Positions 5,096 through 15,270 of a DNA stretch of 64,000 nucleotides are shown here, one piece after another. The stretch spans positions 124,001-188,000 of the forward strand of contig NZ_FWYE01000002.1 in assembly GCF_900176435.1 (NCBI RefSeq). The letters run 5' to 3'. Source of the DNA: Picrophilus oshimae DSM 9789. GTDB taxonomy: Archaea > Thermoplasmatota > Thermoplasmata > Thermoplasmatales > Thermoplasmataceae. The notes under the pieces are model-generated. The model was not told where the DNA came from and ran no database searches. It saw only the letters and a program-made list of their open reading frames with translations. The position numbers and the translations under genes were made by a program. Numbering within the stretch: position 1 is the first letter of the stretch; every line of letters starts with the position of its first letter.

Positions 5096-7465
5096 TTATA
5101 CAACACAGGCCGTTGATATCGAATCGTTTTCTGTTAATCCAACGAGCCTTACACCGGATGCAAACCTTGATAAAATGCTTATATCTGATGACTTTATTCT
5201 TATTGTTTGATCATTTTTTGTTACTATTATGATCTCGTCATCATCCTTTACAGGCAGTGCCATGACAAGTTTTCCGGTCTTCTCATTCTCCTTAAATAAG
5301 TAAACGCCACTGCTGCCCCTGTGATGTTCCGGAAATTCCGTGGCCCTTGTTCTCTTTCCAAGACCATTCTCTGTGATGCTTAATATTGTATCATCGTCTT
5401 TAACAGGAAATGCAGATATTACATACGAACCGTTTAATTTCATGGATTTTACCCCCCTGGATGATCTTGATGTAAGTGGAACCTCATCGCTTAGAAAGAC
5501 CGCGGCCTTGCCGTTTGATGCCGCCACAAAGATCTTTGATGAACCTGAAATCTCGCTAACAGAGACAACCTCATCGTTATTTGCAAGGTTTATTATCTTT
5601 ATTCCAGATTTTCTCATATCAAGTATCTCGGAGATGTTTGTCTTTTTTATAAAGCCGTTTTTTGTGACTATTATTAATAAATCCTCAAGGTTCTCCGGTG
5701 ATTTTATGATCTGCCTTATGATTTCATTATCGTTTAATTTCAAAAATTTGTTGCCGCTGACACCTAATGCCTTTCTATCCCTTTTTTCTATCCTGTATGC
5801 CTTTTCCTTAAGAACGCGGCCAGTGTTTGTAAAGAAATACAGTGTATCATGTGCCATGCATGAAACAACAGATTTTACGGAATCGTTATCCCTTGTGTTT
5901 GTTATTATGCCACGGCCACCACGACGCTGTGATTTGTATTCATCCAGTGAGACCCTCTTTAAGAGACCTTTCTCGCTGAGAATTATAACTGATTCCTCAT
6001 TTGGTATAAGATCCTCCTCATCGCGGCGGCTTATCTCGCCCTCTATTACCTCGGTTCTTCTCCTATCGCCGTACTGTTTTTTTATCTCGTCAAGCTCGGC
6101 TTTTAAAACGTTCTTCCTTGTATTTTCATTGTTAACGACATCGCTTAAATATTCTATTTTTTTGTTTATTTCATCGATCTCTTCCTTTAATTTTGATATT
6201 TCTAGGGCGGTTAACCTCTGTAACCTCATGTCAAGTATCGCATTTGCCTGTACCTCGGTTAATGATAGCTCTTTCATTAATGATGATCTTGCGCTGTTAA
6301 CATCGCTTGATGATCTTATGATCTTTATAACAAGATCAATGTTATTCAATGCTATTAAAAGACCGTTTAATATATGCATCCTTTCATTAAGCTTTTTTAA
6401 ATCGTATTCAGATCTCTTCTTTATAACATCAAGCCTGAAACCTATGAAATTTTTAATGAGATCCTCAAGGTTCATAACCACCGGAACATTATCAAGCAAA
6501 ACAAGATTTGTAACGCTTATCGATGTTTCAAGCTGGGTCTTTTCATAGAGCTGATTTACAACAAGATCAATCCTGTCATGACCCTTTACCTTTATAACTA
6601 TTCTTATTCCATTGCGGTCACTCTCATCCTTTATATCAGATATATTATTTATCTGGTCATTGTTAACAAGATTTGCAAGATCCTGTATGTACTGTGCCTT
6701 GTTAAGGCCGTATGGCAGGCTTTTTATAATGATCCTTTTATCTTCTGCCTCTATGCTTCCGCGGCATATGACCTTTCCATGGCCTGTTTTATATATATCT
6801 ATCATGTCCTTTGTTCTGTATATGATTCCACCGCCTGGAAAATCCGGGCCCTTTATGAATTTTAACAGATCATATAAACTAGAATCCTCATGGTCTATCT
6901 TATATTTTATTGCATCACACACCTCATTAAGATTGTGCGGCAGCATGTTTGTTGCCATACCAACGGCTATGCCAGATGTTCCATTAATAAGCAGCTGCGG
7001 TATCTTTGATGGAAAATAAACAGGTTCATTTAATGATCCGTCAAAGTTTGGCATGAAAGGTACCGTTTCCTTATCAATGTCTCTTATCATCTCCTCGGCT
7101 ATCCTTGCAAGCCTTGCCTCGGTATACCTCATGGCCGCAGGTGCATCACCGTCTATTGAGCCGAAGTTCCCCTGCCCGTCAACCAATGGATACCTTAATG
7201 AAAAATCCTGTGACATTCTTGCAAGCGCATCGTATATCGCAGAGTCACCATGTGGATGGTACTTACCCATGGTCTCTCCAACAATACGTGCTGATTTTTT
7301 ATATGGCTTATCGTGATTAAGGTTTAATTCATACATTGAATATATTATTCTTCTCTGAACGGGTTTTAACCCATCCCTTACGTCTGGTATCGCCCTGCTC
7401 ACTATAACGCTCATTGCATAGTCAAGATATGAGTTTTTTATCTCTTCCTCAATAGGTCTCATCAT
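5096..7465 (-). CDS. gyrA: DNA gyrase subunit A
   Basis: The breakage-reunion subunit of gyrase, which introduces negative supercoils with GyrB. From the chosen start the protein has about 789 residues. The catalytic tyrosine is in [10 protein letters not shown] (about Tyr114). The C-terminal half (about 280 residues) is a six-bladed-propeller type region that begins with a GyrA box QRRGGRG near residue 505, the element needed for wrapping and true negative supercoiling. This argues for gyrase rather than Topo IV. The frame opens at TTG 7486, inside gyrB, but ATG 7465 follows a GGGTG site and gives [19 protein letters not shown], the expected N-terminus. Gyrase in Thermoplasmatales is regarded as an ancient acquisition from bacteria. 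Confidence 0.96.
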
Positions 7466-7475
7466 TTTTAACACC

Positions 7476-9416
7476 CTATATGTCAAGATTCTTTACGAAT
7501 TTTGCATTTTCCTCTATGAACTTGCGCCTTGGCTCAACCTTTTCGCCCATTAATATGTTAAAAAGCTCATCTGCATACATAGCATCCTCTATTGTAACCA
7601 TGACGATGCGCCTCTTTTCAGGATTCATTGTTGTATCCCAGAGCTGCTCAGGGTTCATCTCCCCAAGACCCTTAAAACGCTGTATTGTTGCATTTCCAAG
7701 CTTCTTTAAAAGCCTGTCCTTTTCATCGTCAGTGTAAACATAGTTTATATCAGTTCCCTTCTGTATTCTGTAAAGCGGTGGTTCGGCAAAGTAGACATGG
7801 CCCAATTCTATTAACGGCCTCATGAACCTGTAAAAGAACGTTAAAAGCAGTGTTCTTATATGTGCACCATCAACATCGGCATCCGTCATTATTATTATCT
7901 TATCGTACCTTAATTTTTTCTCATCAAAGTTCTCCTTAATGCCAGAGCCTATGGCAGTTATTAGATTCTTTATTTCCTCGTTTACAAGAACCTTGTTGTC
8001 ACCGGCCTTTTCAACGTTTAATATCTTTCCCCTCAATGGAAGTATTGCCTGGAATTCCCTGTTTCTTGCCTGCTTGGCCGAGCCTCCTGCGGAATCACCC
8101 TCAACAATGTACAGTTCGGTTTTAGCCGGATCATCACTTGAACAATCCGCAAGCTTTCCCGGAAGGCTTGAACCACTGCTTAATGCTGATTTTCTTTTTA
8201 TTAATTCCTTCTGGCTTCTGCTGGCCTCCCTGATCTCTGCTGATAGTATAACACGCTTTGCTATTGCATCAGCTGTTACAGGATATGATTCAAAGTATGA
8301 CTTTAGATACATCTCGGTTGCGGATGCAACTATTGATTTTATTTCGCTGTTTCCAAGTTTTTCCTTTGTCTGGCCCTCGAACTGTGGCCTCATTAATTTC
8401 ACATGTATTGCCGCAATCAGTCCGTCCCTTGTGTCGTCACCTGTTATATTCAATTTTGATAGATTCTTTGATTTTATGTAGTCTATTATTGCCCTGGATA
8501 AACCTGTATAGAATCCGGTGACGTGCGTTCCATCGTATATCGTTCTTATATTATTTGCAAAGCTCTCAACAATCTTTGAGCTGTCTGTTACATAAAGAAA
8601 GGCAAATTCCAGTGAGTACTTACGAATTTCATTGTGAACCTCCTTTTCAATCTCCGTTGAATAGTATATCGGATCCTTGTAAACTGGATCCTTGTTTGAT
8701 GAGATGTATTTAACAAATTCAGATAAGCCGCCTGTGAAATGGTATGTTTCCTTTTTTGATGTTCTTTCATCCTCAACTGTTATTGTAACCTGCGGATTTA
8801 AAAATGCGAGCTGCCTGCATCTGCCAGCTATTATTTCATATGAAAAATCTCTCACATCAAAGATCTGCGGATCCGGATGGAACTTTATTATGGTCCCATG
8901 ATTGGCAAGCTTTATTTTTACATCCTTTATTGTTGAAGCCATTATGTAATCGAGTTCCTCCATCTTTGTTACGGGGAGGCCACGCTCAAACTTCTCTATG
9001 TATAATTTATCATTCTTTTTTACAATTGCCTCAAGGTAATCTGAAAGCGCATTTACCACATGAACGCCTACGCCGTGAAGACCGCCGGTGACCTTATAAA
9101 CATTTTTATCAAATTTTGCACCGCTGTGAAGTTCTGTTAAAACAATCTCAAGTCCCGGTCTCTTGTATTTTGGATGCATGTCAACCGGTATGCCACGTCC
9201 ATCATCCTCAACGGATATGCTGCCGTCTTTATATATTATTATATAAATATTTGAACAGAAACCTGCCATTGATTCATCTATACTGTTATCTATTACCTCA
9301 TAAACCATATGGTGAAGTCCTTCCTCGCTGGTGTTTCCTATGTACATTCCTGGAGTCTGCCTTACTGCCTTAAGACCCTCAAGAATTTGTATTTGAGATG
9401 CGTTGTATTCATCCAT
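7476..9416 (-). CDS. gyrB: DNA gyrase subunit B
   Basis: ATPase subunit of gyrase. The GHKL ATPase fold is seen in [28 protein letters not shown] and [16 protein letters not shown]. The Toprim domain shows [30 protein letters not shown] in two adjacent pieces and DADVDGAHI, and the C-terminus has [15 protein letters not shown]. The length of 646 residues is normal, without the insert seen in some proteobacterial GyrB. The gene ends 10 bases before the gyrA ATG and is almost certainly co-transcribed with it. Upstream lie 87 bases with a short GC-rich inverted repeat and then hemE, in the same direction. Confidence 0.97.
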
Positions 9417-9503
9417 ATAAATCTATACAATATTACCTAAGACTTAATAACCTTTCCATGAAGAATTGGCGCTAAAATCCGCCTTTTATTAATATATTTT
9501 GTC

Positions 9504-10499
9504 TTATTGATTAAAATGATGAACAAAATTGACGATATGCTTAAGATTTTCAACCGGTGTCTCAGGTATGACACCATGGCCAAGGTTGAATATATAGCTG
9601 GATCTGCCAGCAGCATTTATAATGTCTGACGTTTCTTTAAGCGCATAGCGTAAATTGTAGGCTGCTATTAACGGGTCAAGGTTGCCCTGAAGACCCTTCT
9701 TATTAACCATGGATCTTGCAAGTTTCATGTCAAGACGCCAGTCAACGCTTATATAATCAATGTTAAGTCTTGAGAGTTTTTCTATTATAGATGATGTGCC
9801 TGTGCTAAAATATATAACAGGTACATTTATCTCTGATAATATCTCCTCGATATGCCCTTTTATGTAATTTTCATATGTCTGCGGTGATAGATATCCAAGC
9901 CAGCTGTCGAAGATCTGTATTGCATCAACACCTGCACGCACCTGAAGCCTTATGTATTTTATTATCATGTCCTTTATAATATTAATATAATCATTGAATT
10001 TATCATCTGAAAGCATTGATCTTTTTGTTAGGTTTAAATTGCTATCCGGGCCCCCGGCAATGATGTATGATAATACAGTTATAAGACCGCCAGAGAAACC
10101 TATTAATGGAAAATGATATTTTTCTTTAAAGATTTTTATTGCATCGTATATTTTATATTTAAAATTTGATTCCTCAAAGTATATTATATCTTTCATGTCG
10201 TGGTTTTTTATATATCCATTTATGATCCTTGGCCCGCCGGGCAGGAATTCTATTTTATATCCAAGGGCCTCAAGCGGTATTGTAATATCTGAAAATATTA
10301 TTGCGGCATCAACGTTTAAAATTCTGACCGGATCGTATGATATACCTGCGATCAATTCAGGGTCCATGCATATCTCTTTTATTGTCATCCTGCCTTTTTT
10401 CTCGTTGTATTCCTTTAAATAGCGTCCTGCCTGTCTCATGAACCAAACAGGTATTGTATCTGAATAACCGTTCCTTATCATTGATATAAAGCTGTTCAT
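9504..10499 (-). CDS. hemE: uroporphyrinogen decarboxylase
   Basis: Decarboxylates uroporphyrinogen III to coproporphyrinogen III in heme synthesis. Visible signatures are [12 protein letters not shown] at the N-terminus, [11 protein letters not shown] around residue 90, [17 protein letters not shown] near residue 135 and [12 protein letters not shown] near the C-terminus. The length of 331 residues is typical. The start codon overlaps the asnS stop (ATGA), which indicates co-transcription. Heme demand fits the P450 encoded 9 kb away. Confidence 0.94.
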
Positions 10500-11779
10500 G
10501 GCTTTATCCTTCTAACAGTTCTTGGATATGGTATTGCATCCCTTATATTATTTAAATTACATATCCAGTTAACAAGACGGTCAAGACCGAGACCGAATCC
10601 ACTATGGGGCACGCTTCCGTATCTTCTTAGATCTATGTACCAGTAATAATCCTCCTCTGGAAGGCCGGCCTTTTTCATTCTTTCGAGGAGCTCATCAAGC
10701 CGCCATATCCTCTCACCACCGCCTATGATCTCGCCGTAGCCCTCCGGTGCCAGCAGGTCATGGCATAGAATCTCTCCTGGATTTTCAGGGTCCGGAAGAT
10801 GGTAAAATGTCTTTAATTCTTCCGGATAATTTGTAACAAACAGTGGCTTTTCATAATGTATCATTATATTGTATTCTTCGTCAGCGCCAAGATCATCACC
10901 ATACTTTAAATTCATGCCAAACTCCCTTGATTTGTTTATTAAATCACGGTACTTTATCCTTGGAAACGGTGCCTTTATCCTTTCAAGTTTTGATATATCC
11001 CTGTTTATTAATTTTAGGTCCTTCTCGTTTTTATTTAAAACCTCGGAGACTATATATTCTATCATTTTTTCCTCGACATTCATCATGTCATCGTTGTGAA
11101 GCCATGCTGCCTCACCCTCGGCATGCCAGTATTCTGATAGATGCCTCCGTGTTCTTGATTTTTCAGCCCTGAAGCTTGGTGCTATTGTAAACACCTTTTC
11201 AAGGCTGAAGATCATGGTTTCAAGATAAAACTGTGAGCTTTGTGTTAAATATACATCATCATCAAAGAACTTTAACTTGAATAAAGTCGCACCACCCTCG
11301 GTTGCTGTTGACACCATCATTGGACCCTGAACCTGGTAGTAACCGTTGTTATAAAAGAAATCCGCAAAGGCCTTAAAAACCGTTGATCTTATCTTTAATA
11401 TTGATGTGAATTCCCTGCTTCTTAACCATAGATGCCTGTTGTCTAAAAGAAACTCGTCACTTTTATCCTTTGTTATTGGAAAGAATTCGTTTCTTTGATA
11501 TATCTTAAAATCGCTTATTTTTATCTCATAGCCGGTGACGGCACGCTCATCCTTGCTAACCTGGCCAGTTACCTCAAGACTGCTTTCAACTGTTAATGAT
11601 GATATATCGTTGTACCTTTCGCCAAGGCTGCTTGATGCAACGCACTGAACAATGTCTGTTGAATCCCTTATAATGATAAATGTTATCCTTCCGGAGCTCC
11701 TTATTCTGTAAACCCAGCCGTGTATGGTAACTGTTTTGCCTATGAAATCATCATTAAGTATGCTTTCTATGCTTTCCAT
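10496..11779 (-). CDS. asnS: asparaginyl-tRNA synthetase
   Basis: Class IIb aminoacyl-tRNA synthetase that charges tRNA-Asn. An OB-fold anticodon-binding domain occupies about residues 1-120 ([15 protein letters not shown]). The catalytic core follows with [10 protein letters not shown], motif 2 [18 protein letters not shown] and motif 3 [12 protein letters not shown]. The [13 protein letters not shown] form separates AsnRS from AspRS. The 427-residue length is normal. Presence of AsnRS, together with GatDE elsewhere in the window, suggests direct Asn-tRNA charging and indirect Gln-tRNA formation. The promoter carries a clear inverted repeat around its TATA-like box. Confidence 0.9.
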
Positions 11780-11868: not shown

Positions 11869-12204
11869 ATGTATAATATAAAAATGAAGGAACAGCACCC
11901 ATCAACAATCTGCGTGCTTCTATCAAAATTCGAGGATTCATTAAAGGCCATGATTGATGTTGTTACATCGCCGTTGATCGATGAGAGCCTTGAGGAATTT
12001 ATAGAGGAGTATGCCAGAACAGATGAGATCATGCCCGAGGATAAAACCATAGGCTTTATAATAATCAATAAGGATAAAAAGGTTATTTCAATAACGTTTA
12101 CACAGAACATGGGAATAAACAAGAACAGTGTTGAGGAGATAGTAAAAAAATATAAGGATCTTGGATATAAAACAGAGATAGAGTACGCGAACACACCGTT
12201 TTAA
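11869..12204 (+). CDS. small uncharacterised soluble protein
   Basis: About 111 residues. In-frame ATGs at 11854, 11869 and 11884 are all possible. A TATA-like ATATAAAG at 11831-11838 would place transcription start near 11860, so 11869 or 11884 is favoured. The protein is acidic in the middle (ESLEEFIEEYARTDEIMPEDK) and has an alternating strand pattern (TIGFIIINKDKKVISITFTQNMG), followed by a lysine-rich helix. It overlaps the end of the convergent gene at 12201 by 4 bases. A long minus-strand frame covers the same bases, but the plus-strand codon pattern and residue composition look coding. No family recognised. Confidence 0.6.
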   Translation: MYNIKMKEQHPSTICVLLSKFEDSLKAMIDVVTSPLIDESLEEFIEEYARTDEIMPEDKTIGFIIINKDKKVISITFTQNMGINKNSVEEIVKKYKDLGYKTEIEYANTPF

Positions 12205-12449
12205 TACATTGTTAAATTATATTCTTTATCCTTTTCCGTATATGATCTAAATGAGTTTATGCCAAGTATCTCTGATATCCTTTTCATCTGATCGACATAG
12301 CTTTTATCATAGACCTCCCTGCCAAGCTTTAGCCTTTTAAGCTCATCATCATAGATTACAACCTCCCCGTGCTTTAAAAGGCAGTGTATGCATTCAGCCG
12401 CACTTATTTCATCATCCTTTAATTCATTAAAACATTCCTCTATACCCAT
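12201..12449 (-). CDS. small uncharacterised protein at the end of the nuo operon
   Basis: An 82-residue acidic protein. The frame is open further upstream, but ATG 12449 is preceded by a strong GGTGAT site, giving MGIEECFNELKDDEISAAE. A CIHC pair near residue 22 could bind metal, although two cysteines alone are not enough to claim it. The rest is charged and helical. It starts 10 bases after nuoN in the same direction and is very likely the last gene of the complex I operon, so an accessory or assembly role is possible but unproven. Confidence 0.65.
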   Translation of the reverse strand: MGIEECFNELKDDEISAAECIHCLLKHGEVVIYDDELKRLKLGREVYDKSYVDQMKRISEILGINSFRSYTEKDKEYNLTMY

Positions 12450-12459
12450 AAAAATCACC

Positions 12460-13866
12460 TTATATCCTGGCAACACCAAGAATATACGAAAACAGTGAAA
12501 ATGAAAAGAACAGGGCTATCGTTATGAATGCGCTTATAATCACTGTATATTTTACTCCCATGGTAAGGTTGAACTCCTCCTTAACAGGCCTTCTGTATTC
12601 GTATGTTATTACCCTTAGATAATAAAAGACAGAGATGACGCTGTTTATTATTGCTATTACCGCAAGCCACCATATGTTTCCTATAATCAATGTAAAGAAC
12701 AGGAAGTATTTTGCAAGGAAGCCGCCGGTTATTGGAACACCGGCAAGTGACAGTAACAATATTGCAAATGAGAATGCAAGCAGTGGTGATTTTTTGTTTA
12801 GGCCGGCCATATCATCTATCATAATTTTGTCCTTTTTGAATATGCTCATTGATATGAACGATGCACCTTTCATGAATATATATGCAAGTGAGTAAAATGC
12901 CGCGGATGCCAGTCCAAAGTCTATGAAAACGCTCCTTGAAACAAGCGTATGATACGGATAGCTTATTATTGCATAAACAAGTATTAAATAACCTGCCTGT
13001 GCAACGCTTGAATAGGCGAGCATTCTTTTTAGATTCGTCTCCGAAAGTGCCGAGACATTTCCATAGGTCATTGTGAGTATCGAGAGTATTGCAAAGAAAT
13101 AGAATATGTATATATTATATCCAGGGAAACCAAGGTACAAAACCTTTAAAAAGAGAAAATATGCAGCTATCTTGCTGCCTGTTGATAAAAATGATGATAC
13201 TGAATTCATTGAACCATCGTATGTATCAATTGCCCACTGCTGCATCGGGAATATTGCAAGCTTAAAACCAAAGCCTATGATCATAAAGACCAGGGCCAGT
13301 ATCAAGGCCCTGCTGTATGAAATATTAACAATGTTAAGGAGATTAAATGTTCTTGTTGAAAGGTAAAATAACGATATACCAAAAATATTAAATGACGTGC
13401 CTATAACGCCTATAAAAAGGTACTTAACAGCACCCTCAAGGTTTCTCCTTGTTTTGTTATATGCCGCAAGTATGTATGTTATTATAGTTAACCCCTCAAA
13501 GGAAACAAAGAGCACTATAAGATTATAAGAATAAGCTATTATAAGCATGGATGCGGTCATAAAGAGCAAAAGAGCGTAGAAAACATCAGGTTTTTCCTTT
13601 AAATCATGCATCGTTGGTACAACTATAATTATCACAGATATTATTAATATCAATGAGAATATCTCATCGAACCTTGAAAACTTTAACTGATTATATATAA
13701 GACCATTAAATGGCATTATTATTACAAGTATAAATGAAACTGCCAGTGACGCCATTGCCATAGCTGCAAAGAGTTTTTTGCTCTGGGATCTTATGCCAAT
13801 GGCAAGAAGAACAAAACCCATTACGCCAAGAAATATAACCGGATATAAATACTCTATATAATTCAT
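12460..13866 (-). CDS. nuoN: NADH-quinone oxidoreductase (complex I) subunit N
   Basis: Antiporter-like proton-translocating membrane subunit of complex I. About 468 residues with roughly 13-14 hydrophobic segments. The family core is visible: the glutamate helix LIVLFVSFEGLTIITY near residue 120, the lysine helix FGFKLAIFPMQQWAIDTY near residue 210, and MLAYSSVAQAGY near residue 290. The frame extends to 13938, but ATG 13866 overlaps the stop of the preceding 52-residue ORF (ATGA) and gives a proper membrane N-terminus. It is the only antiporter-like subunit in this operon. Confidence 0.9.
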   Translation of the reverse strand: MNYIEYLYPVIFLGVMGFVLLAIGIRSQSKKLFAAMAMASLAVSFILVIIMPFNGLIYNQLKFSRFDEIFSLILIISVIIIVVPTMHDLKEKPDVFYALLLFMTASMLIIAYSYNLIVLFVSFEGLTIITYILAAYNKTRRNLEGAVKYLFIGVIGTSFNIFGISLFYLSTRTFNLLNIVNISYSRALILALVFMIIGFGFKLAIFPMQQWAIDTYDGSMNSVSSFLSTGSKIAAYFLFLKVLYLGFPGYNIYIFYFFAILSILTMTYGNVSALSETNLKRMLAYSSVAQAGYLILVYAIISYPYHTLVSRSVFIDFGLASAAFYSLAYIFMKGASFISMSIFKKDKIMIDDMAGLNKKSPLLAFSFAILLLSLAGVPITGGFLAKYFLFFTLIIGNIWWLAVIAIINSVISVFYYLRVITYEYRRPVKEEFNLTMGVKYTVIISAFITIALFFSFSLFSYILGVARI

Positions 13867-14021
13867 GATAGCCCTCCAGTATTCATGGATATTAACAGGC
13901 ATATAGAAATAACAGCTGCGCAATTTTTTGTGAACCATTCTATGATGCCCTGATTCATGCTTGTGTATCGTATATGCCCTTTTATAAATTGATATAGGGA
14001 AAAAAATATGTCGCTTACCAT
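13863..14021 (-). CDS. 52-residue ORF between nuoK and nuoN; possible NuoL C-terminal remnant or small subunit
   Basis: Too short for routine gene callers, but it fits the gap exactly. Its ATG (14021) overlaps the nuoK stop and its TGA (13865-13863) overlaps the nuoN ATG. Such coupling at both ends suggests it is translated. It begins MVSDIFFSLYQFIKGHI and ends CLLISMNTGGLS, with a hydrophobic stretch AAVISICLLI around residues 35-44. In canonical operons nuoL and nuoM stand here. The pattern QGII followed 20 residues later by LL and NTG resembles the very C-terminus of NuoL, where a similar motif follows the last helices. That resemblance is recalled by eye, not aligned. It could equally be a lineage-specific small subunit or a chance frame. 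Confidence 0.5.
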   Translation of the reverse strand: MVSDIFFSLYQFIKGHIRYTSMNQGIIEWFTKNCAAVISICLLISMNTGGLS

Positions 14022-14314
14022 TTTATCTCTTTCAAAAGTGATATTGTTATCCTGCCGTACTTTTTATAAACCATGGTTAGTATTGCTATGCCAACTGCAG
14101 ATTCTATGACGCCTATGGCAATTGCAAAGAGCACAAAGATCAAAACACCTGTTGAGAAATAAAACGATGATACGGAAACACCTGCAAGGATTGCTGAATT
14201 TATTATGATTTCAAGCGATATCAGCATTTTAATCCCAACGTTTGATGTTGATATTCCGTACAAACCTATTGAAAACAGTATTAATGAAAGCATTAATAAA
14301 TATACTATGTTCAT
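14015..14314 (-). CDS. nuoK: complex I subunit K
   Basis: Small membrane subunit (99 residues, three transmembrane helices) of the proton-pumping arm. The conserved glutamates appear in LISLEIIINSAILAG near residue 35 and IGVIESAVGIAI near residue 70, as in NuoK/MrpC-type proteins. ATG 14314 overlaps the stop of the upstream nuoJ2 (ATGA) and is preceded by a GGGAGGAGA site; the in-frame ATG at 14329 lies inside nuoJ2 and is less likely. Confidence 0.92.
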   Translation of the reverse strand: MNIVYLLMLSLILFSIGLYGISTSNVGIKMLISLEIIINSAILAGVSVSSFYFSTGVLIFVLFAIAIGVIESAVGIAILTMVYKKYGRITISLLKEIKW

Positions 14315-14532
14315 CTTCTCTCCTCCCATGCTATGTACATAACACCTATTATTGCGGCAACAAGTATCAATGATAGAAGCTCAAAGGGTATTATATATGT
14401 TGAAAAGAGCTCTGTGCCTAGCCTTGATATATTCTGTGATCTTATTATAAAGCTCCCACGTATAAAGGCGAAGTTTACAGCAAATATTATGAAGAATACT
14501 ATTATTGCTATTTTTTGTAATTTATTCCTCAA
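14311..14532 (-). CDS. nuoJ: complex I subunit J, C-terminal half (nuoJ2)
   Basis: About 73 residues with two hydrophobic segments. The sequence LGTELFSTYIIPFELLSLILVAAIIGVMYIA is the conserved end of NuoJ (quoted here only as its two blocks GTELFSTY and PFELLSLILVAAIIG). The N-terminal half is a separate gene just upstream, so NuoJ is split in two, as is known in haloarchaea. There is no ATG. GTG 14541 and TTG 14532 are the options, and TTG 14532 is favoured because GGTGAGG precedes it by a few bases. Confidence 0.85.
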   Translation of the reverse strand: MRNKLQKIAIIVFFIIFAVNFAFIRGSFIIRSQNISRLGTELFSTYIIPFELLSLILVAAIIGVMYIAWEERR

Positions 14533-14776
14533 CGTCCTCACCCCCGGTTAGCATTAATGTGAAAACAAGAAGTGTAACTATTGCCCCTGCATAGACAAGA
14601 AGCTCGACACTGCCCACAAAGCTTAAACCAAGAGATATAAAAAGACCTGAGATTATTATTAGAAATATTAAAAGGTATATCGATGAGTGAATCAATTTTT
14701 TACTGGAAATTACCATAAATGATAGAATTACAAGGAGTATGGCAAAGATAAAGAAAACTATGTAATAATAGCTCAT
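14522..14776 (-). CDS. nuoJ: complex I subunit J, N-terminal half (nuoJ1)
   Basis: 84 residues with three transmembrane helices. The NuoJ signature is VGSVELLVYAGAIVTLLVFTLML at residues 55-78 (key residues: the glutamate in SVELLVYAGAI). It ends GGEDVEE, and nuoJ2 begins inside this end in another frame. The frame is open upstream to 14908, but that stretch is antisense-like sequence inside nuoI. ATG 14776 overlaps the nuoI stop (ATGA) and is the right start. Confidence 0.88.
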   Translation of the reverse strand: MSYYYIVFFIFAILLVILSFMVISSKKLIHSSIYLLIFLIIISGLFISLGLSFVGSVELLVYAGAIVTLLVFTLMLTGGEDVEE

Positions 14777-15270
14777 TTTATCACGTCCTTCTCCTGCATT
14801 GTAAGCTCCTGGGGCGAGTAGGTAAAGCTGTTCCTGGTTCTTGCCGTTTCGAATTCGTGGGTTAAATAAATTGCGTTTGTTGGGCATATTTCCTCGCAGT
14901 TCCTGCATACAGTGCAGGTTCCAAAGTTCACATCAGGATACAAATGCCTTTTATTCTGGGCATTTTCTCTCACACCCCTGGCTGTTTTTATTGCATGTGC
15001 ACCTGTATTCTGGGAGGATAGATCCCAGACCTCCATTTTTATACTGTGATTTGGGCATATCTGCTGGCATAGTGTGCAGCCTATGCATGATTCCGGGCTT
15101 AAAAATATTCTGTACCTGAACCTCTCCGGTATATCCCCCTTTTCCTCTGGATACTGTACTGTAACAGGTTTTTTAAATATGAATTTACCCACATGGTACA
15201 TTGTCTGGATCTCGCCTATCAACGGCAGCGGTTTTTTTGGTATTTCTATTTCCTTAACATTTGCGGTCAT
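14773..15270 (-). CDS. nuoI: complex I subunit I, two [4Fe-4S] clusters
   Basis: Ferredoxin-like peripheral-arm subunit that passes electrons towards the quinone site. Two classical cluster motifs are seen: CIGCTLCQQICP around residue 63 and CTVCRNCEEICP around residue 110. The protein has about 165 residues. ATG 15270 follows GGTGAT, which lies in the overlap with the end of nuoH; the alternative ATG at 15285 lies before that site. With NuoEFG absent, an upstream electron donor such as a ferredoxin or similar protein is expected to meet this subunit or NuoB/D. Confidence 0.93.
   Translation of the reverse strand: MTANVKEIEIPKKPLPLIGEIQTMYHVGKFIFKKPVTVQYPEEKGDIPERFRYRIFLSPESCIGCTLCQQICPNHSIKMEVWDLSSQNTGAHAIKTARGVRENAQNKRHLYPDVNFGTCTVCRNCEEICPTNAIYLTHEFETARTRNSFTYSPQELTMQEKDVIK

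Follow-up and report, generated by a model that had tools for sequence, protein, structure and literature searches.

The complex I operon of Picrophilus oshimae DSM 9789 has no nuoL or nuoM between nuoK and nuoN, and two intact nuoL-nuoM pairs lie elsewhere in the genome. Very likely, nuoL, nuoM and sm, a small gene downstream of them, were duplicated elsewhere in the genome and lost from the operon, the 52-codon frame that now spans the nuoK-nuoN gap is the scar of the resulting junction, and complex I is complete.

The operon and the distal nuoL-nuoM cassettes

In the window, the whole 64,000-nucleotide stretch of DNA that was analysed, the following features surround the gap:

12201..12479, minus strand: small ORF (92 codons at most) immediately downstream of nuoN; no Pfam match
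12460..13866, minus strand: nuoN (NF004445, 2.6e-167); the only copy found, with the key residues present in the alignment
13863..14021, minus strand: 52-codon frame, interpreted as the scar of a deletion that reached from a short way into nuoL almost to the nuoM stop
13865..13879, minus strand: GGAGG, resembling a ribosome-binding site, upstream of the nuoN ATG and within the putative scar, where it encodes the final GGL
14015..14329, minus strand: nuoK (NF004320, 3.2e-26); no second copy was found in the genome (single PF00420 match)
14311..14541, minus strand: second part of nuoJ (NF005030, 2.9e-39)
14522..14776, minus strand: first part of nuoJ (NF005023, 5.1e-39)

The ORF containing the first part of nuoJ, listed as 14522-14908, extends upstream across nuoI; its match to the family starts at about codon 45. 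NCBIfam family models confirmed NuoH, NuoI, both parts of NuoJ, NuoK and NuoN, and the membrane core of complex I (NuoH, NuoJ, NuoK and NuoN) is present in full. The gap between nuoK and nuoN measures 148 nt and is spanned by the 52-codon frame. Thus, the ORF coordinates and the identified neighbours bear out the preliminary description, in which nuoL and nuoM were absent from this place and a 52-residue ORF occupied it. The order nuoK-L-M-N is absent here, with nuoL and nuoM outside the operon, which is a feature of gene order only and not of the enzyme.

A whole-genome search for antiporter genes with the family PF00361 returned seven places, namely, nuoN, two genes of a hydrogenase-4-like operon and two nuoL-nuoM pairs. 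Each pair is part of a cassette:

C1 cassette, L008: nuoL 7012-8835, then nuoM 8832-10313, then sm 10314-10658
C3 cassette, L009, minus strand: nuoL 9172-11037, then nuoM 7694-9175, then sm 7350-7697

Both cassettes begin after divergently oriented genes, and in both sm (114-115 aa) stands directly behind nuoM, with no nuoN between them. The C1 and C3 copies are full length, with 607 and 621 aa in NuoL and 493 and 493 aa in NuoM, and the two pairs share 55% (NuoL) and 47% (NuoM) identity. Subunits L and M of complex I/NDH-1 are the best solved-structure matches of both NuoL and both NuoM. Furthermore, reading of the alignments showed the NuoL motifs to be intact in both copies, including the region of the lysine-glutamate pair, the histidine of HAATMV and the lysine of FYSKD. 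The genome encodes a single NuoK, a single NuoN and a single complex I NuoH, whereas there are two L/M pairs; the only other NuoH-family gene sits in the hydrogenase-4-like operon.

Judging by its ORF content, the latter operon (C1, L010 3310-9680) is of the hydrogenase-4/formate-hydrogenlyase-like kind and comprises two antiporter-like subunits together with NuoH-, NuoD- and NuoB-like genes. The sm genes, in turn, encode a family of 112-124 aa proteins associated with nuo genes in these archaea; no match to a Pfam family exceeded the cut-off. Located beside the relocated nuoL-nuoM, sm may be an uncharacterised accessory gene of complex I. Among the open-access papers searched, none was found to describe the nuoL/nuoM arrangement of Picrophilus.

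It had been proposed that, were nuoL and nuoM missing from the rest of the genome too, this complex I would have one antiporter-like subunit, in a layout closer to that of membrane-bound hydrogenases. The two intact, adjacent nuoL-nuoM pairs that the genome search located outside the operon refute this proposal, since the complex has homologues of both NuoL and NuoM. It is also improbable that NuoN is the single antiporter-like subunit of complex I while the relocated L/M pairs form separate, unattached ion-translocating modules. The position of nuoL and nuoM away from the operon would agree with such modules, as would the absence from the C3 NuoM of a histidine that is invariant in relatives. 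However, the full length of all four proteins, their best matches to complex I subunits and the retention of the NuoL motifs argue against them. Moreover, the closest relatives of both pairs are the operon-encoded L and M of Ferroplasmaceae, and no other L/M set would be left for complex I. We infer instead that both pairs assemble into complex I, which would probably consist of the operon core (A-D, H-K and N) and a distal L/M pair from either cassette.

The frame in the nuoK-nuoN gap

On the minus strand, the start of the 52-codon frame (ATGGTAA) overlaps the nuoK stop, and its end (ATGA) overlaps the nuoN start. The start region (ATGGTAAGC.ATAT) is similar to that of nuoL in Ferroplasma and Acidiplasma, where the overlap with nuoK is the same, and ATGGTAA matches the Acidiplasma/Ferroplasma-type junction, in which nuoL starts with ATGGTAA or ATGGTAG. 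At the other side, GGA GGG CTA TCA TGA stands where nuoM would end (Ferroplasma-type loci have GGGGGATTAATATGA there) and matches the second junction of this type, in which a nuoM end of the form GGLx-ATGA lies over nuoN. At the position of the GGAGG site of the frame, the nuoM end of relatives carries GGGGGG or GGAGG. The frame appears to owe both of its fixed ends to nuoL and nuoM, and the double coupling is therefore no evidence for a gene. Accordingly, of the earlier view that the ORF is coupled on both sides and seems to be read, the overlaps proved real but do not speak for a gene.

By position, the end of the frame is the nuoM end and not that of NuoL, which it had been thought to resemble. 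The resemblance to NuoL (GIIE..) is not significant by profile. Depending on length, 1 to 18 of 494 null ORFs reach an equal score, and the resemblance is too slight to outweigh the positional case for nuoM. Against the profile of the NuoM C-terminus, the last 10 residues of the frame scored above all 494 null ORFs, a fit that is short, fades with length and is partly dictated by the ribosome-binding sequence; the C-terminal profiles of NuoL and NuoN also score fairly well on this end. HMMs of NuoL, NuoM, NuoN, NuoK and sm gave no excess signal on the ORF when run alongside 20,000 shuffles, so that the middle of the frame is untraceable to L or M.

Codon choice in the frame is unlike that of genes. 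Its synonymous codon score is -0.048, compared with 0.199 +/- 0.083 in held-out genes, and none of the 783 held-out gene windows scored as low. The full codon score is less clear, with 2% of in-frame windows being equally low. Beyond the genome itself, the 40 related genomes yielded only chance-level matches and no homologue of the 52 residues, and searches of NCBIfam, Pfam and plasmids (tblastn) with this sequence returned nothing useful.

The preliminary description had offered two origins for the ORF. The first, a remnant of a nuoL-nuoM deletion, is supported by synteny, the inherited junctions and codon use. The second, a new small subunit, gained no support, and we find it quite improbable that the ORF took the place of the old junction and encodes a novel small protein, either a membrane subunit or an assembly factor. 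The openness of the frame between its coupled ends is somewhat unusual, since only about 2% of base shuffles that keep the start and stop in place leave it uninterrupted, and the C-terminal half of the ORF is hydrophobic, both of which would suit a membrane protein of this kind. Yet such a protein would be one with a homologue in 0 of 40 relatives and a synonymous score under that of every held-out window, and nuoL and nuoM already account for both ends of its frame. If it is a deletion scar, the frame would run from the old nuoL start codon to the old nuoM stop and would probably yield no useful protein. It would nonetheless keep the ribosome-binding site of nuoN and the stop-start overlap for translation of nuoN after nuoK, and it has perhaps been retained for this site and for translational coupling.

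Relatives and history of the rearrangement

Among the sampled genomes, only this genus departs from the one-operon layout. In the comparison set of 40 related genomes, 31 from outside the genus carry nuoM next to nuoN on the same contig. With the thresholds used, each of these 31 has one L and one M match (L is partial or in pieces in G024 and G036), and in most of them sm is found behind nuoN. Two named species, Acidiplasma aeolicum and Ferroplasma acidarmanus, have the order J-J-K-L-M-N-sm in their records as well. In one relative (G007, locus L046), nuoN is followed by sm and then by a gene similar to the ORF at 12201..12479, from which it follows that sm is missing after nuoN here. As a separate observation, nuoL of the near-complete genome G024 lies in two overlapping pieces (G024:C1:1160026-1161997), which suggests a frameshift.

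The sister species of the same genus (G001) is represented by a separately assembled genome that is 59% complete. It contains the C3 cassette (C97), which is collinear with the present genome for 10.6 kb (81% identity), together with a portion of the C1 cassette (C69), collinear for 4.0 kb (76% identity); both have the same neighbours as here. Its nuoN is joined directly to the small ORF, without sm, as in the present genome. Thus, the rearrangement predates the split of the two species. The DNA match of the sister genome to the window breaks off within nuoN, where the contig ends, and the scar itself is therefore not comparable between them. An assembly error or misjoin, with L and M truly in the operon, is barely credible: although the draft assembly comprises 6 contigs, the gap lies inside a contig of 362 kb, both junctions are natural gene ends, and the sister assembly agrees in its cassettes, in their neighbours and in an sm-less nuoN.

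In the NuoL tree, both copies fall in one clade next to Ferroplasmaceae (96/96). In the NuoM tree, the C3 copy is placed outside a group of Ferroplasmaceae and the C1 copy (98/98), but the test does not reject a single clade for the genus (AU p = 0.175). The simplest reading is a duplication at about the time the genus arose, with reciprocal loss afterwards. We infer that in the ancestor of the genus nuoL-nuoM and the downstream sm would have been duplicated to two other places, after which the operon would have lost L, M and sm; the cassettes without nuoN would represent reciprocal loss after duplication.

Distal pump modules and NuoM residues

The present complex has the same subunits and the same split nuoJ as the archaeal 11-subunit-type complex I of Thermoplasmatales (nuoABCDHIJJKLMN, no NuoEFG; PMC5155288, PMC3750248). 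Its closest relatives there are those of Acidiplasma and Ferroplasma. In contrast to the other Thermoplasmatales, nuoL, nuoM and sm here lie outside the operon, in two divergent copies. The 2M complex I (Nitrospira-like) has an extra NuoM and is similar in that there is more than one NuoM per genome. Here, however, whole L-M pairs are duplicated and NuoL is not longer than that of relatives (607 and 621 versus about 601-646 aa), which makes an extra pump within the same complex less likely.

The positions of the central-channel lysine (K265 in E. coli NuoM) and of H322 are non-basic in all sampled members of family f1, including both copies here, whereas families f3 and f4 of the order retain these residues. 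In family f1 NuoM, no conserved basic residue was seen that might compensate for them. K265 and H322 have been treated as the proton donor path to E407 (PMC9271201). That NuoM has naturally lost conserved residues of the proton path is relevant to how complex I pumps.

In the C3 NuoM (L009 7694-9175), Ala replaces the residue equivalent to E. coli NuoM His348, and the C3-type NuoM of the sister species (C97) shares this Ala, whereas His occupies this position in every other sampled relative. This substitution suggests either specialisation or relaxed constraint. We tentatively consider it possible that two forms of complex I are built on one core by swapping L/M pairs, and that the C3 form, with a NuoM lacking His348, would pump differently and perhaps be suited to extreme acidity. 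To our knowledge, the combination of one core with alternative distal pump modules is found chiefly in cyanobacterial NDH-1. In NDH-1L and NDH-1MS, exchangeable NdhD/NdhF variants are mounted on a common core (PMC9283085). The likeness, one core complex with several alternative distal antiporter-like pairs, is of principle only and not of membership, and the two assembled forms here, in contrast, are predicted from the genes. Overall, the claimed loss of two of three pump subunits is removed, and in its place would stand a testable example of an archaeal complex I whose operon was split, with genes lost reciprocally, and whose distal pump module comes in two alternative versions.
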